From Hyaloraphidium curvatum (taxonomy: Eukaryota > Monoblepharomycota > Hyaloraphidiomycetes > Hyaloraphidiales > Hyaloraphidiaceae): 64,000 bases of DNA. Within the stretch, counting starts at the first letter, position 1. The number at the start of each line of letters is the position of its first letter. Of the stretch, positions 49,318 to 61,084 are shown piece by piece. Location: positions 248,001-312,000 of the forward strand of contig JAIVFI010000035.1 in NCBI GenBank assembly GCA_025558095.1, in the 5' to 3' direction. The notes beneath the pieces were generated by a model that saw only the letters and a program-made list of their open reading frames with translations, did not search any database and was not told the origin of the DNA. The translations under genes were made by a program, and so were the position numbers.

Positions 49318-49434
49318 AACGGATGAGCTTAGTTTTTGTTTGAATTGAGGGTCGCTCTGCGGCCATCGCTGGTATTCGCACTCAAAGGACAAATGTCCAC
49401 TAGCTCAAGAAGAAGAAGATCCTTGCTGTCCCCG

Positions 49435-50326
49435 CTACTTGCCCTCCTCAGCGACCGGCGGCTTCCAATCCGGCGGCGTCTTGACGATCTGCTCAACGTC
49501 GTAAGAAACCGCGTGGCAAAGCGCGCTGCGGTACCCACGATCGTCGGGCAGGGCACGTGGTGGATGACGTGGTCCGACACGCTGCCGAGGAGCGTGCGAC
49601 GGACCGCGCCCATCCCGCGGGATCCCATGATCAACGCGTCGGCGGAGAGCTCGGCGCACTTGCGCGTGATCTCGTCGCGAGGGTCGCCTGTCGTGAAAAT
49701 GTGAGCATGACCGGTTTGCCGCCCTTTGACGGACCCACCCCTCATGGCAATCGCCTTGCACGAGATCTGCGGCAGGTTCGTGGTGAGATTGGGACGCTTC
49801 GGCCGGTTTCGAGGTGGCCCACTTTCCGCTTCTTGATCTGCCCGGCGTAGGACTGGAGTAGCTGGTGCGAAACCGCGCGGTGCTGCTCCTCGACCTGGCT
49901 GAGGTAGTCGGTAAAGTCCATGTCTTGTCGATGGAACGAAAAACGAGTCGAATGTTGGGGCAAAGGCGTGGAAGGAGGGACGCGTCAATTTGACGCCCCA
50001 GACAGATGCCCGGAAACACACACAGGAAGCTCCGTACGGGCCGGGAAGACTCGGCGTCGGTCGGACGTTGATGAGCACGACGAGGTCGCTCTCGGGCCTG
50101 TCCAAAGGCGGTTGAAGGGGGTCGAGGAAGAGTCGCCAGAACAACCCTACCGGATGAAGTTGTCGAGAGCCCAGGTGAAGGCATATTGCGAATGAGCCGA
50201 CGCGTCGACAGAAACGACGACCACGCGGGTAATGCTGCCCCCGCCGGTCGCGTGGTCGTCGGTGTGGATGACGCTCTCCTGCGGCGCCGGCTCCGCGGGA
50301 GGGGCCAAAGTCTGCGCTCCGCTCAT
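49435..50326 (-). CDS. Universal stress protein (UspA family)
   Basis: Six exons (50151-50326, 50024-50097, 49823-49923, 49739-49766, 49539-49687, 49435-49488) add up to 193 residues. Blocks in order: RVVVVSVDASAHSQYAFTWA, DLVVLINVRP, a helical insert (DYLSQVEEQHRAVSHQLLQS), then MRGDPRDEITRKCAELSADA, and the ATP-binding GSRGMGAVRRTLLGSVSDHV with PCPTIIV. The G-x2-G-x9-GS spacing indicates the nucleotide-binding subclass. The exon 49739-49766 is only 28 bp. Intron 49924-50023 ends in AAG; the others end in CAG. USPs respond to stress and energy state; no specific pathway is indicated. Confidence 0.92.
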
Positions 50327-51347
50327 TTCGACCGGAAAGTCCGCCGACTGGTGGGTGTTGGAAAGTATCGGGAAAGGCCGGCTGACTGGCAGGGCACTGA
50401 GTTGCTCGGAGATGTGGGAGCGGGATTGCAAGAATCCGGAGTTGGAGATGTGGCGGCAGGCCGAGTGACTCGACAACGACGAAGGAGCGAGGGATCCAAC
50501 TCCCTTCGAACCAGGATCGCAGGATGGCCGAGAGAGCGCTCTTCTTTCAGAGTAGTCGTGCTAAAGCTTGCATCCGTCGTCTGGAAAGTTGAGTTGGAAT
50601 GGCCGTTGCAATGTCAGCAACACTCTCGCAGCTCCAATGCAATAATCAAAAAAGGGTTCTTCGAGGAGATTCTGCCAGAGCGCAAAGCAAGAAATCATAT
50701 ATGACGTCCCGAGGCGCCGGTTGATGGGCTGTCGGGACTGGCCGGAGATTGTGGGCCAGCGACGGACAGCACTTCAGTCGGGGTCTTGCGACCCGAGCGA
50801 CGGCGCAATTTCCATCTTGGGCGATTCATTGGCACGATTTCGGAGGCACTTGGAGGTGATGGTGCCTGGGGGCGGCCAGATCGCGTTTTCTTCAAGGAGG
50901 GATCAAGCGGACCAGAGAGGGCGTGGGGCCGCGGGGCCAAAGAGGGCGCGATCGGTCTAATGGAACCAGATAGAGGTCATCTGCGCCGTCGGATGGCCAC
51001 GATCGAGGTCATTTGGGAGTGACCTCGCGAGGGGGATGTGGGTCCTTCCCTGAGCGCGACGCGGCTCAGGGACCGAAGACCACCGCGCCGGCCTCCCCAT
51101 CCCGCGGCCACCACCGGTCCGCCCCGTCCCGCCGCGGCCTTTGCGGCGAACGAGGTGCGGCGCGCCCTTCTGCAGCGGCGGCGCGGCGCGCGCGGCCCCT
51201 CTGCGGCCAGTGCTCACGCGATCCCCCCGCAGCGGCCCCGCTCCCCCGCGAATCACGGGCGCCGCCCCCTGAGAGGTGCGCGGCGGCGTGCGGCGGACCG
51301 GCTGAGCAGCGCGCTGACGGCGCGCCCCGCAGGCCCCCGGATCCACG
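50327..51347. other. Divergent intergenic region (USP / repeat-membrane protein)
   Basis: About 1 kb between divergent genes. The right half (51050-51340) is very GC-rich and poor in distinct features. No gene or repeat was recognised. Confidence 0.4.
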
Positions 51348-54300
51348 ATGAGCGCGGGCACCAACACGACGTGCAGCTGCCACTGCGACGGCTGCAACGT
51401 CGTCGGCTGCTACAAGGACTACATCGCGGGCTACTTCGTCATCACGTGGGCCGTTCGCACCCCCGGCACGCCATCCGCTGACCCCGTCCGCAGCAACAAC
51501 CGCACCTGCGTGCCGCAGACATGCATCAACATCTTCCCCAACCTGTGCTCGTCGGCCTTCCCGGTGCAGGCCATCGTCGAGGGCACGCAGACCCAGCCCA
51601 ACTCGGCGGCAATCGCCGGCGGCGTCATCGGCGGCCTGTTTGCGGCGCTGCTGCTGGGCCTGCTGCTCTACTGGTGCTTCCGCAAGAAGGTCAAGCAGAA
51701 GACCGCCATCGTCGAGATGGCCAAGGCGCCGACCATTGAGGGCGTACGTTCCTGCAGTGTGTGCCGCGCGGATTCGCCTGACCCGTCACTGCAGGCCGTC
51801 GTCGAGGCCAAGAACGTCCCCGCCGGCGCCGCCGTCGTGCCCGTGGCCTCCAACAAGAGCGGCAGCGCCGTCGTCGCCGTGCCCTCTGGCAAGTCGGTCA
51901 CGGCCACTGCGTCGAACAAGAGCAACACTGTCAAGTGGCCCGCGACGACTGTGGGAGTGCCGGTTTGTGTTGTTGGTGTGGTTGGCCCCCTCCCCCTTCT
52001 CATGCACCCCAACCCCCCCAGGACGTCGAACTCAAGGCTCCGCAGATCGAGATGCCGGAACTGCCGAAAATCGACATGCCCACAGTGGAGGTGCCTCAAG
52101 TCGAGCCGGTTCGCGTGGCGCTGCCCGCTGTAGCCGCTGGAGCCGCCGTCGGCGCCGCCGCGGTCAAGGTTTCGGCGCCCAAGGCCGAGACCGTCGCCAT
52201 GCCGACTGTGGAAATTCCCGACATGCCCAAGGTCGAGCTTCCGGGCATGACCTCCGCCACCATCGCCCCGCCGACCGTCCAGGCACCGGTCGTGACTCAG
52301 CCGACCGTTAGTGCACCCACCGTGGCCGCCGCGACCATGGCGACCGTTGCGATGCCGACTGTTGTGCTGCCGACTGTCGAAAAGGCCAGGCTGGCGAGCG
52401 CCGAGGCCCCCAAGGTCGAAGCTGCGGCCATCGCCGCCCCGAAGGTTGGACGCTCGGCCGCCGCACCCCGTGCCCTACTCATCCAGCGTCTCTCTTTCTC
52501 GTCCAGGTCGAGCTCCCGGTCGTCGAGGTCCCGACCATCGCCAAGGTGGACGCGTCCGTTTCGGCGCCCAAGGTGGGCCGATTTTTGCCCGCCCCGTGGC
52601 CCGATCTAACTTTATCTTCCCCCACTTCTTTGCAAGGTGGATCTCCCGACCGTCGCTGCACCTCAAATCGAAGTTCCTACGATCTCTGCGCCGAAGGTGG
52701 GCCGTTTGGTTGGCTGCTGCCTTGCCCGACCTGACGACAGCCTTTCCCACTGTTTTCAGGTCGATCTCCCGACGGTTACCGCACCGAAAATTGACGTTCC
52801 GGTTGTGTCTGCTCCTACGGTGCGTCGGTCCGGTTGGATTGTTGCCGGGCACCACCTGACCGCCCCCCTGCCAGGTTGCCCTCCCTACTGTCGCCGCCGC
52901 TGCCGCCATCAGCCAACCCCAGGTGGATCTTCCCTCAGTGGAACTCCCGAAGGTGTCTGCGCCCACTCTGGAGGCGCCGACGATCGCCATGCCGGAAATC
53001 AGCGTCCCGAAGGTGGGGTGGGGGCAAGGGACCGCCTGGAGACGACTCTAACGCCGCCAAAACAGGTCGACGTGCCCTCCGTGAGCGCTCCCGACGTCAG
53101 CCTGCCCTCTGTCACTGCACCCAAGGTTTCTGCGCCCGCCGTTTCGGCTCCGGTTGTCGAGCTCCCGAAGGTATGTTGGAGGCGTCCGGGGGGCACTTGG
53201 AATCCGGCTCATTTCCGGGCTTGCAGGTCGAACTTCCCAGCGTGGAAGCTCCCAAGATTGCCGCCGCCACCATTGCGGCACCCACGGTGCGTTTGCGTGC
53301 CTGCGCGGGGTGTTTGCCCGCGGCTCACTCGGACACCCGACTTCAGGTCGCGGTCCCCAAGGTCGACGCGCCGTCGATCCAAGCTCCCTCTGTGGAATTG
53401 CCGGAGATGCCCAAGGTCGAGCTCCCGAGCGTATCAGCTGCCGCCTCGGTGCCCAAGGTCGAGGCGTCCATCTCGGCGCCCAAGGTCGACGTGGAGGTTC
53501 CCAAAGTCAGCGTCGCCGCCCCCAAGATCGAGGCTCCAGTCGTGGACCTACCTGACGTCGGAGCCACCGTCGCGATGCCCACCGTGGCCATGCCAACCGT
53601 CAGCGCACCGACGATGTCTCAGGCGACGATCTCTGCCCCCAGCGTGTCGGCCTCGGCCGCCGGAGCCACCGTGGGTGCCTCGCAACCGCCTTCCCGGGCC
53701 AGGAACTGACCATCTTTCTTCAAAATCAGGTCGCAATGCCGACCGTGGAGCTTCCGCGTGTCGAATTGCCGTCGGTTTCGTCGGCCTCGGTCAGCGCCCC
53801 GTCGGTGACCGTTCCCGCCGTCACGGCACCGTCTGTCAGCGTCAGCAGCAGCGCGAGCGGCATTTCCGCACCCGTCGTCGAGCTCCCCGTTGTGGAAACC
53901 CCGGCCGTCACGGCTCCGGCGGTCACGGTCAAGACGTCGAAGCTGCCGACGGTGAACGAGAGGCCTTCCGGTTAGTATCGACATAGAGCTTTGTCGGGCG
54001 GGCGGGCCTATGTATGCCTTGGGTTTTTAATCGTAATCTCTTGCCGAACGCCTCACAGGCGCGAGGGTCGCAGCCGGGGCCGCAGGGGCGGTGAGTGCGC
54101 CGCCGCCTCGCACCGTCTGTCCGGCTCTGATGTGTCCGCCCCAGTCCGCCGTCAGGAACGCGGCCGCGCAGATCGACTCGTCGGGCAGCAACCAGCCGCT
54201 GGTGCCCAAGGCGAACGAAAAGACGACCGTCGTGCCCAAGGAGACCAAGTTTGCGCGCGAGCGGCTGTTTGCGGCGCCGGCCGACGTGGCCGCCGCGCAG

Positions 54301-54840
54301 GCCAAGGCCAAGGCGGCGCTCGGGCCGGGCACGGCGATCGACGAGGCGCTCGCGATCGTGCAGGCGGCTGCGCTCAAGCCGACGGACCTCGCCGGGTCGG
54401 TGCGCGACGAGCCGACCGCCTTTGGAAGCAAGACGGCGCCCGGACCCGGCACGGGGGGAGGAGGCGCCGCCGCCGACGGCAGCTACCTCCTGCACGTCTG
54501 CCTGCCGCCCGTCGCCGGCGTCTCGGACACGGAGAACGTCGTCATGGTCGGCGGCGCGCCCGAGCTCGGCGCGTGGGACGTGGCCGACGGCGTGCAGCTG
54601 GCCAAGCGGCCCGACGGGACCTGGCAGGCGATCGTCGAGGTCGGGGATGCCAAGGGGGCCGCCGAGTACAAGTACGCGATCCTGGACGACAAGGACGGGA
54701 TGGTCAGGTGGGAGGAGGGGCCGAACAGGAAGGTCGAGTGGTGCGTTGGCTTGGGTAGGGGGCGAGATTTCGGCGCTGATTTGGGTGGCAGGGACCACGC
54801 CGAGTTCCAGAAGAACATTGCGCCGTTGATCAAGAAGTGA
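51348..54840 (+). CDS. Single-pass membrane protein with Pro/Val mini-exon repeats and C-terminal CBM20
   Basis: Fourteen exons: 51348-51743, 51795-51950, 52022-52444, 52507-52572, 52637-52696, 52760-52819, 52875-53012, 53066-53170, 53227-53286, 53347-53670, 53730-53970, 54059-54090, 54145-54740, 54792-54840 (901 residues). Residues 1-86 are cysteine-rich (CSCHCDGCNVVGC) and probably outside; residues 87-108 form a membrane helix (GGVIGGLFAALLLGLLLYWC) with basic RKKVKQK inside. Residues ~185-676 repeat units such as VDLPTVAAPQIEVPTISAPK, like periaxin/AHNAK. Introns 1-10 are all phase 0, so exons are modular. The last domain (~799-887) is a starch-binding CBM20: VVMVGGAPELGAWDVADGVQ and YKYAILDDKDGMVRWEEG. 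It may tether glycogen or starch to a membrane; inference. Confidence 0.75.
52507..53286 (+). repeat. Array of tandem repeat mini-exons, each in phase 0
   Basis: Six consecutive exons of 66, 60, 60, 138, 105 and 60 bp begin with a GTN-GAN/GCN-CTN-CCN-like codon run (V-D/E/A-L/V-P) and five end in AAG or ACG just before GT. Intervening introns are 53-64 bp. Introns 52573-52636 and 52697-52759 resemble each other at both ends (GTGGGCCG start, GCCCGA followed by a CTAAC or CTGAC branch-like site), consistent with exon-plus-intron duplication. Confidence 0.7.
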
Positions 54841-57948: not shown

Positions 57949-58099
57949 CGCGGCGAGTGGGGGACGGAGATCTGGCTGCCTTTGATGGGGCCGCCGATTT
58001 CAAGCAGTCCTCTGATACTATTTCCGAATTTCTGATGCGTCGACGGCTGCCTGCCTAACTCTCCAACAGCGGACCACCCAACACAGTTCCCGAATTACG
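57949..58099. promoter_or_regulatory. Divergent promoter region (DUF1992 / haspin)
   Basis: 151 bp between start codons of oppositely oriented genes. No specific motif recognised; inferred from layout. Confidence 0.45.
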
Positions 58100-61084
58100 A
58101 TGCCCGCGGTGTACGGCAAGAAGAAGGGCGGCGCGCGGGCGGCGCAGCAGGCGGCGTGGCGCGACGTGTCGCTCGAGGAGGACGGCGGGGGCGGGCCGGC
58201 CAAGGAGAACGCGGGCGGCGCGAATGCGGGGCGGGAGGCGCCCGCGGGCAGAGGGCGCGCGGGCAGCTCTGCTCGGAGGGAGCGGTCGCCGGACGCCGCG
58301 GACCCGCCGGACAGCGCGGACTCGCCGGGATCCGCGGCGTCGCCGGAGGGGTCGCCGGAGGGGTCGCCCGCGCTGCCCGCGCCGCCCCGCCCCGCGCCCC
58401 GCCCCGCGCCCGCCCGCCGCGGCAAGCGCAACATGCCGTACCGCTCGGCGCGCGCAGTCGGGGCCGCCGCGGACACCAGCGCGTCCACCGACGGCGCGCT
58501 GCACGACAGCTCGTTCGAGCTCTCGGCGCCAGACGCCTCGGACGACTCGTTCCACGGGGCCGCCGCCGAGCCCGCCGGCCGCAGGAGGGCGCCGCCGGAG
58601 CAGAGCAGGCTGAGAGAGCAGGGGCGCCCCAGGCAGGGCACCGCGGACTCCAAACCGAGGGGCGGCGCCGCCAAGCGGGGCAGGGGCGCGCAGAAGGGCA
58701 ACCCCGCCCCGTCGCGAGGGCCAATCGGCACGGGGAGGCCCAACCCGGCTGCCCGCCTGCGCCGCGCACCGGCCTCGGACAGCGACCAGGAGGACCTGAT
58801 CGCGGGCATCGCCAGCGCGAGGCCGCCCGCCTCGCTGCGCACCTCCCCGATCCTGAAGGCGCGGCACGCGCTGGAGCCGGATCAGGACTCGGAACCGCAA
58901 CCCGAACCGAGTGCGGCTGCCGACGTCCCCGACATGCCCGACGACCCGTCGGAAGCGGACGCCTCCCTCCCCGCGCCGCAGAACCGGCATGCCATGATCA
59001 CCTCCACCCCGGCCGTCGGCCTGGTCGGCGACCGCCGCCTCGGCATCGCCGCGCCCTTCCCCAACCTGTCGCCCATTGCGCCGCTCTCGCCGATGGGCGG
59101 CGCCGCCGACGGCGACCTCCTGAGGTCGCTCGCGTCCTTTTCGCTCGACGGCGCCTCGGGCTCGGCCGGCGAGTCGGTGTCGGGCGCATTCGTGCGCACT
59201 CTGGCCGAGTCCTGCGCATCGGAGCGTCCGAAACATGCGTCCGGCGGTCGAACGAGGGAGTCGATCGCCACCGTCTCCTCGGACCCGCCCGCCGACGGCC
59301 CGTTCGGCGTCGCCGAGGTCGTCCCCGCCCCCCCGGACTCCGACTCCCCCCCTCCGCAGGTCCGCGGCCGCCGCCGCCCCTTGCCCGCCCCCCGCCCCGC
59401 CTCGCCCGCCGATACCACCGCCAGCCTCCCCCCCGCCGCACCCCGCCCCGATCCGCCGACGGTGTACAAGACCACCCTCGCGCGCCGCTTCGAGAACAAG
59501 CTGGCCACCACCGCCCGCCGCCGGCGCAGCTCCGTCGCGAGCAGCGCCGCCCTGGGCCGGTCCACCCGCAGGGTGGTCCCGCTGTCCGCTGGGGACGCGA
59601 GCGTGGAGGAGAGCTTCGCGACGTTCCTAACCGCCACGGAGGACGAGGAGGACGAGGAGGAGAGGGCGCTCAGGGCCGTCGGGCTGCAGCAGCTGCTCGA
59701 GGCGTGCGGGCAGGAGGAAGTGCTGTCGTTCGAGGAGGGGTTGGTTTGGGAGGATGCTGATGGGCAGGAGTGGGTCGACTGCGCGATCGGGAAACTGCAC
59801 GCAGCTGACGCTGTCCACCGCACGTCCAGGCACGACCTCAGACACTCGCTGGCCAAGATTGCCGAGGCCACCTACTCCGAGGTCTTTTCCTGCCCCCTCC
59901 CCGGCGCCGGCGGCCGGCGGCGCGGGGCGGCCCCCGATCGGGAACGCCTGGTGGTCAAGATCCTCCCCTTCTGCGCCTTCGAGGGCGCCGACGTCGACCC
60001 CGATACGGGCGAGCGCGTGCTCGTGAACGGATGCGGGCAGCTCGAGCCGTCAGCGGTGTGGACCGAGATCGCGTGCACCTCGCGGCTGGCTTCCGTGGGG
60101 TCGGGGCTCTTCGGCGGGTTCCACCGCGCGAGGGTGGTCAGAGGGTGCTACCCGATGGAGCTCGTCCGCGAGTGGAACCGCTGGGACTCTGCGCGCGCGC
60201 GCGAAGGGCTGCCCGGGTCGGACAACTGGGAGCCGGACTACTTCCCAGACGGGCAGCACTACCTCCTCCTCTTCCTGCCCTACGGCGGGCTGGACCTCGA
60301 GGCGTTCCCCGTGCCGTCGTGGCGCGCGGCGCATTCGGCCTTCTGGCAGGTGTGCCTCGCGCTGGCGGCCGCGGAGAAGGAGGCGCGGTTCGAGCACCGC
60401 GATCTGCACGTGGGCAACGTGCTCGTGCTCGAGGACGGAGAAGTGAAGGCGGGGACGGGCACGGCGCCCGAGGTGTTTTGGCGGGACGACGCCGCGGGGC
60501 GGACGTGGCGCCTCCGGCACCACGCCGTGCGCGCGGTGGTGATCGACTACACCCTGGCGCGGTTCGAGGGCGGCGGCAGGCTGTTCTACAACCCGCTCGA
60601 CGACGAGGAGCTCTTCCGCGGGCAGGGGGACAGGCAGTACGACGTCTACAGGGCGATGCGGGAGGCGACGGGGGGGGAGTGGAGGCTTTTCTGGCCGAGG
60701 ACGAACGTGCTGGTGGGTTCATCGGCAGCCTAACCGCCGAATGTGCGGCTGACGCCGACCTGTGCGTGCGGGCAGTGGCTCGAGTACATCCTGCACAAGC
60801 TCGTGCACGGAAAGACGGTGCCGCGGCGCGAGGCCGCCCCGGCGGAGCAGGCGCAGGCAAAGGGGTCCAAGGGCCGGGGCAAGGCGGCCCGCGGGAAGAA
60901 GCCGGCGCCCGCGGAAGATGCGGACGAGCCCGCGGATGCGGGGTTCAGGGAGCGGCTGGTTTCCCTGCTCGGGGAGGGCGCCGGGCCGGGGGTGCTCTCG
61001 TGCGCGAGCGCATCGGAGGTGCTCTCCCGGTTCGGCACGGCCTGGGAGGCCGCGGACGTGCTCGAGTTGGAACAGGATCCTTGA
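58100..61084 (+). CDS. HASPIN: Haspin-like histone H3 kinase
   Basis: Exons 58100-60712 and 60776-61084 (63-bp intron) give 973 residues. The N-terminal ~570 residues are disordered, with many Ser, Pro and Arg. The divergent kinase domain (~580-973) has an ATP loop [11 protein letters not shown], the lysine in RLVVKILPF, the catalytic [17 protein letters not shown] and, in place of [13 protein letters not shown], all hallmarks of haspin. Haspin-specific ends are QYDVYRAM and, across the intron, [16 protein letters not shown]. The enzyme phosphorylates histone H3 threonine 3 to place the chromosomal passenger complex in mitosis. The kinase tail carries a Lys/Ala/Gly-rich insertion ([14 protein letters not shown]). 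Confidence 0.93.

Follow-up and report, generated by a model that had tools for sequence, protein, structure and literature searches.

A predicted single-pass membrane protein with an exon-built repeat stalk and a C-terminal CBM20 domain in Hyaloraphidium curvatum

The DNA analysed here (the window) comprises 64,000 nucleotides of Hyaloraphidium curvatum (GenBank assembly GCA_025558095.1, contig JAIVFI010000035.1, here C35, positions 248,001 to 312,000 of the forward strand), from a genome of 31.9 Mb in 55 contigs. At 51348-54840 of the window, on the plus strand, lies a predicted 15-exon gene, rebuilt from GT-AG sites and reading frame, that would encode 889 residues comprising a Cys-rich N-terminal segment, one predicted membrane helix, a long Pro/Val-rich stalk and a C-terminal domain of the starch- and glycogen-binding family CBM20. 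The ATG at 51348 has A at -3 (CCACG-ATG) and the stop codon is at 54838-54840. All 14 introns are GT-AG and 48-88 nucleotides (nt) long, and although eight of them are not divisible by three, the frame is preserved; introns 8, 11 and 12 contain in-frame stops. Phase 0 is found in 11 of the 14 (introns 2-11 and 13), the others being introns 1 and 14 (phase 2) and 12 (phase 1). An earlier sequence-only reading of this locus had described ten successive phase-0 introns, which introns 2-11 indeed are, but had counted 14 exons, probably missing the 48-nt intron 1, with or without which the frame survives. Its size range of 60-324 nt for the repeat exons fits exons 5-12 but not exon 4, which also encodes repeat and measures 423 nt.

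By eye, the introns are short and have GTGGGT/GTGAGT-like 5' ends, as do those of this genome's glycogen synthase gene, and a CTRAY branch-like motif is visible in nine of the 14. A splice-site scan based on the branch motif was crude, the pattern not being enriched overall (367 found against 560 in block shuffles), and is used lightly here; in it the 5' site GTGGGT stands out (20 against 3.7 expected), with GTCGGC (11 against 5.1) and GTGAGT (6 against 1.6) less marked. Open reading frames (ORFs) on the antisense strand across the gene were set aside because they are typical of GC-rich DNA. The features are collected in Table 1.

Table 1. Exons, selected introns and predicted protein regions of the gene, in window positions
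Feature	Position	Strand	Basis
Predicted luminal or extracellular N-terminal segment, residues 1-70, 8 Cys	51348..51605 (includes intron 1)	+	Sequence analysis
Exon 1: start codon and first half of the Cys-rich N-terminal segment	51348..51445	+	Gene model
Intron 1, 48 nt	51446-51493	+	Gene model
Exon 2: remainder of N-terminal segment, predicted transmembrane helix, basic juxtamembrane stretch	51494..51743	+	Gene model
Predicted transmembrane helix, about residues 71-95, then basic RKKVKQK	51606..51680	+	Kyte-Doolittle, K/R counts
Exon 3: linker, residues 117-172	51795..51962	+	Gene model
Stalk, exons 4-12, residues 173-664, pentad P-x-[VI]-x-[ALV]	52022..53970	+	Gene model, spacing counts
Exons 4-7 (stalk)	52022-52444, 52507-52572, 52637-52696, 52760-52819	+	Gene model
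Three mini-exon plus intron units (exons 5-7, introns 5-7), possible tandem duplicates	52507..52874	+	Intron likeness
Exons 8-12 (stalk)	52875-53012, 53066-53170, 53227-53286, 53347-53670, 53730-53970	+	Gene model
Intron 12, 88 nt, GTTAGT..CACAG, phase 1, join of stalk and CBM20 part	53971..54058	+	Gene model, junction listing
Exon 13, 32 nt	54059..54090	+	Gene model
Exon 14: Ala/Lys linker with two predicted helices, then CBM20	54145..54740	+	Gene model, structure model
CBM20 starch/glycogen-binding domain, residues 803-874, last codon completed in exon 15	54526..54740	+	Pfam, PDB matches, model
Exon 15: C-terminus and stop codon	54792..54840	+	Gene model

The protein belongs to the CBM20 family by profile score, fold and conserved residues. 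The Pfam profile CBM_20 (PF00686) matches it with E = 3.2e-12 and 46.5 bits against a cut-off of 23.3, exon 14 alone giving 48.3 bits, and a six-frame search of the genome recovered the same domain as one of two CBM20 places, a lower bound given that the search ran exon by exon. Among the four Pfam matches of the 889-residue protein at E <= 0.1 there is no catalytic domain. The 198 residues of exon 14 were modelled from an alignment of 13 sequences (11 bacterial relatives, the glucanotransferase of the same genome and this protein); the predicted local distance difference test score (pLDDT) is 85-97 in blocks across CBM20, with a whole-model average of 65.6 and a predicted template modelling score (pTM) of 0.48, and the helices predicted before the domain (residues 721-733 and 740-751) are of low to middling confidence. 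A fold search with this model returned 17 PDB matches at E <= 0.001, among which isolated starch-binding domains reach target-normalised template modelling (TM) scores of up to 0.71; the matches comprise glucoamylases, alpha- and beta-amylases, laforin (4rkk), an amylase CBM20 and the CBM20 of human GDE5. By sequence, the best PDB match is a glucoamylase starch-binding domain (6.1e-7), followed in kind by cyclodextrin glucanotransferase, with the CBM20 of STBD1 (8x8k, E = 0.0013) and laforin (0.67) further down. The CBM20-like C-terminal domain of the sequence-only reading is thus upheld by profile, model and fold search alike.

At four positions, W819, K851, W864 and N869, the domain has the same residue as the glucoamylase CBM20 aligned with it, and we take these four to belong to binding site 1. 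W819 is the tryptophan of an LGxW motif and is present also in the aligned STBD1 chain; presumably it is the equivalent of STBD1 W293 and laforin W32. This tryptophan of STBD1 and laforin is described as required for binding (PMC4076837). The predicted CBM20 surface would be expected to bind starch or glycogen.

The stalk confirms the Pro/Val repeat of about 490 residues proposed earlier, with a length of 492 residues (19% V, 18% A, 16% P and no aromatics) and a periodicity far above that of shuffled sequences. Successive prolines are spaced by five residues in 51 of 77 pairs, against a mean of 6.2 and a maximum of 17 in 5000 shuffles, which rules out a chance repeat; the third pentad position is V or I in 50 of the 51, and the longest unbroken run contains 16 prolines. 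A Pfam match to Extensin_1 was rejected as below its cut-off (44.4 against 105 bits). The exons are in register with the repeat, since eight of the nine stalk exons start on a V-x-[LVM]-P unit (29 units; p = 4.6e-10 over 492 positions in a hypergeometric test that ignores splice-site preference), exon 4, which begins D-VELKAP, being the sole start off register. The spliced coding sequence of the stalk has 19 phase-0 AG/GT positions, eight of them at V-x-[LVM]-P units. Where AAG or ACG precedes a Val codon, whose first two bases are GT, the sequence is itself a good splice context, so that both proto-splice sites and exon duplication are possible sources of the register. Among 91 intron pairs, the neighbours 5/6 (z = 4.5) and 6/7 (z = 3.8) are the most alike relative to shuffles, while whole exon-plus-intron units, compared with no control run, agree at 85/120 (5/6), 84/113 (6/7), 80/101 (5/7) and 83/110 (5/10) aligned bases. 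Because these whole-unit identities are equal or higher between non-neighbours, tandem duplication of units 5-7, suggested by the intron likeness, is put forward as no more than possible. The symmetric-exon stalk envisaged in the earlier reading agrees with the phase 0 of introns 2-11.

The single membrane helix proposed earlier is supported by a Kyte-Doolittle maximum of 2.42 at residue 73, the next-best windows (1.83) lying within the Ala/Val-rich repeat. K and R are absent from residues 56-70 before the helix and number five in the seven residues after it, and from this asymmetry the positive-inside rule would place the long C-terminal part in the cytosol. The two N-glycosylation sequons (residues 6 and 35) and the eight Cys of the N-terminal segment lie on the opposite side of the helix from CBM20, and a single Cys (residue 794) follows the helix. 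With this N-terminal segment, the predicted ectodomain, as query, the genome gave 17 matches at E <= 1, of which two are the gene itself and the others are weak (4.9e-4 to 0.47) and mostly cover the helix region. One locus matched in this way (L030) reads as a surface protein. Of the loci translated, L008, L010 and L030 are used here, and those matched on the minus strand (L014, L016, L025, L026 and L028) are set aside. The length of the helix and its L030-like sequence would suit the plasma membrane as well as the endoplasmic reticulum (ER). Pfam matches to TM_ErbB1 (19.8 against 27.1 bits) and Syndecan (13.5 against 25.2 bits) fell below their cut-offs and were rejected.

The same genome has a glycogen synthase of the Glycogen_syn family (which also matched two prokaryotes among 14 control genomes), ATG8, and seven GT8-family matches that are not resolved to glycogenin. 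Its gene content is fungal, since Fungal_trans, which we take to be a fungal family, has 74 matches (73 over cut-off) and none in the 14 controls; a flagellar family had no match in the genome and none in the controls, and was dropped as uninformative. The second CBM20 place (L001, contig C8:483189-483443) consists of CBM20 followed by a 4-alpha-glucanotransferase (Glyco_hydro_77). This is a DPE2-like arrangement, best known in plants and amoebae, and unexpected in a fungus.

On balance, we think it probable that the gene encodes a single-pass fungal membrane protein resembling STBD1, whose cytosolic CBM20 would hold glycogen near a membrane. We count in its favour the CBM20 score above cut-off, the conserved binding residues, the charge asymmetry around the helix, the glycogen synthase in the genome and the recovery of just two CBM20 places (again, at least two), this gene and the 4-alpha-glucanotransferase. 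The helix would anchor the protein in the ER membrane or perhaps, given its length and the ectodomain, in the plasma membrane, while the C-terminal domain would bind glycogen particles through its conserved carbohydrate-binding surface. The pentad region would act as a flexible spacer that sets the reach from the membrane, and the in-register phase-0 exons would let the gene gain or lose stalk units without a frame shift. The tethering of a storage glucan to a membrane, suggested earlier, is accordingly retained as the best reading.

The sequence-only reading had held that no described protein has this order of parts, which is wrong at the level of architecture. Mammalian STBD1 (genethonin-1) is described as having an N-terminal hydrophobic anchor, a linker and a C-terminal CBM20, as facing the cytosol and as gathering glycogen at the ER (PMC5358331, PMC4076837, PMC7648618). 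Its anchor is given as a signal anchor, predicted type III, within the first 24-25 residues, and a less conserved putative leucine zipper is placed in its middle region (PMC5358331); another source classes it as a peripheral membrane protein held in place by that segment (PMC12785236). In myoblasts, STBD1 is reported to gather glycogen when its Atg8-interacting motif (AIM) is mutated but not when the CBM20 Trp is (PMC7648618), which suggests that an anchor and a CBM20 suffice for the tether role. The fungal protein shares with STBD1 the membrane anchor, the linker, the C-terminal CBM20 and, by the charge rule, the predicted cytosolic C-terminal side. It differs in being fungal, in its pentad stalk of about 490 residues and in the 70 Cys-rich residues that precede its helix, where the STBD1 anchor is at the extreme N-terminus. 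Furthermore, no STBD1-type AIM matches in residues 96-802, the Gly2 start for N-myristoylation is missing (the model begins MSAG), and in sequence score three glucoamylases and cyclodextrin glucanotransferase lie nearer to its CBM20 than STBD1 does. Because anchor position, AIM, Gly2 and closest CBM20 all disagree, we do not claim membership of the STBD1 family, only that the layout would work like that of STBD1.

Other known proteins resemble it in part. The stalk resembles AHNAK, and it is like periaxin in repeat composition and period, with no homology claimed. In periaxin, a PEVK-rich region is described as spanned by a pentapeptide motif and likened to an entropic chain (PMC7072810). Periaxin and AHNAK differ from the fungal protein in their pentad and in its membrane anchor and CBM20, and the PDZ domain that is a feature of both is absent from the four Pfam matches. 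The Chlamydomonas pyrenoid proteins Cre09.g394510 (CBM20 and t-SNARE) and SAGA1/2, proposed to link starch to membrane remodelling or matrix (PMC10473226), likewise have a starch-binding domain, but they act on chloroplast starch and have other partner domains. CBM20 glucoamylases and the CBM20 4-alpha-glucanotransferase have the domain in common and are enzymes. Atg45, a glycophagy receptor of S. cerevisiae, is comparable in its role as a fungal glycogen-directed adaptor, but its conservation is suggested to end with Saccharomycetaceae and C. albicans (PMC11546884). Among the literature matches listed, judged by titles and the starts of abstracts, there was neither a fungal membrane-anchored CBM20 protein, which is weak evidence of absence, nor a description of the order of pentad stalk, ectodomain and CBM20.

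Several observations weigh against the tether reading. No signal peptide is seen at the N-terminus of the 889-residue model, and upstream exons that could supply one by joining to the 3' site at 51332 are weakly hydrophobic (best 10-residue mean 1.49) and none is convincing, so the N-terminus would need to cross the membrane as a 70-residue N-tail. CBM20 is found also in enzymes that act outside the cell. Three protein searches found no homologue with the same architecture, so conservation lends the model no support, though two of them scored the best 7993 and best 7999 word-sharing candidates and do not establish that homologues are absent. The C-terminal 250 residues as query gave one relative, and a stalk-less query gave none, whether scored on residues 173-407 or on the CBM20 part alone (32 candidates). 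That relative (P0001) is a metagenome protein of 608 residues in which two CBM20 stretches are combined with a PP2C-type phosphatase domain, and it could act as a phosphatase directed at glucans. Finally, the union of all exons in one transcript is predicted from the gene model, and intron 12, on which the connection of stalk and CBM20 depends, is the weakest splice site in that model. It is the longest intron (88 nt, against 48-64 nt for the other 13), its 5' site GTTAGT is unusual, with no occurrence in the scan where 0.85 were expected, and by eye it lacks a CTRAY motif, as do introns 3, 4, 9 and 10.

These features of intron 12 could instead mark the boundary between two neighbouring genes. 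The first would encode a membrane protein whose cytosolic Pro/Val tail stops at 53975, the second a small, separate CBM20 protein of the cytosol translated from an ATG at 54130. Retention of the intron leads to an immediate stop at 53973-53975, and this ATG is in the frame of exon 14, downstream of a stop at 54034. However, the ATG has a poor context (CTCTG-ATG) and falls within a well-formed intron 13 (GTGAGT..CTGATG..CCCCAG), and only about 150 nt separate it from the upstream stop to hold a promoter and leader. In addition, when the 20 in-frame junctions were listed (5' sites 53850-53973, 3' sites 54030-54174), none was shorter than 53971-54058 and none came closer to the size of the other introns. 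Two genes are less likely than one, and we regard this arrangement as unlikely.

We also consider it quite unlikely that the protein is a glycogen autophagy receptor, in which CBM20 would bind glycogen and a short motif ATG8. The genome does encode ATG8, and both STBD1 and Atg45 have been described as glycophagy receptors (PMC11546884; for STBD1 also PMC12785236), but there is no extended motif of the LC3-interacting region (LIR) type between helix and CBM20. The single pattern match (GTWQAI, residue 833) falls within CBM20, and all five matches to the core [WFY]xx[LIV] lie in the ectodomain, in the helix or in CBM20. It appears improbable that the protein is a scaffold with a CBM20 that chiefly attracts glycogen enzymes instead of glycogen: the interaction of STBD1 with laforin, debranching enzyme and glycogen synthase is reported to depend on its CBM20 Trp, and the authors suggest that glycogen is not required as a bridge (PMC4076837), but the polysaccharide-binding residues of the fungal domain are conserved.

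CBM20 is common in secreted amylases. A cell-surface protein catching environmental starch with an external CBM20, to which this background, the glucoamylase domain as top PDB match and the weak helix-region matches including the surface-like L030 would point, is nevertheless very improbable given the five basic residues that directly follow the helix, the lack of any in the 15 residues preceding it, sequons and cysteines N-terminal of the helix with one Cys (794) after it, and no visible signal peptide.

The divergent neighbour of the gene is an ORF at 49329-50546 on the minus strand with a universal stress protein match (Usp, 1.5e-14), and downstream, at 58016-60733 on the plus strand, is a Haspin-like kinase match (2.2e-41). 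Long ORFs at contigs C24:513.7-516 kb (L010) and C20:26.4-28.6 kb (L008) consist of different Pro-rich repeats, with ELKAPELPSIDAKLPELKAPEIPSISAALPDV and LPEADFGKIKAAFDGIGTPDFKLPDL among their units, and are reminiscent of AHNAK-type repeats; further matches lie at C24:564-567 kb. Fungal_trans matches occur in pairs of identical score and length (C25:4796/28295 and C10:42653/C51:10831), which suggests recent duplications or redundant contig pieces.

Returning to the proposed tether, the anchor-linker-CBM20 layout is known from STBD1, and what appears to be new is the far longer stalk made of small, repeat-matched exons. We suggest tentatively that the protein could be an independently assembled fungal counterpart of STBD1 with an exon-encoded pentad ruler, whose length would change by in-frame duplication, loss or skipping of exons, so that splicing could tune the distance between glycogen and membrane. 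In the sources cited here, membrane-bound glycogen tethers are described from mammals and the positioning of glycogen in fungal cells seems largely open; autophagy in Komagataella is reported to treat glycogen as a neutral cargo (PMC11546884). A fungal protein of STBD1 layout would suggest that this solution evolved more than once or goes back further than assumed, and the exon-built stalk would turn tether length into a testable variable.

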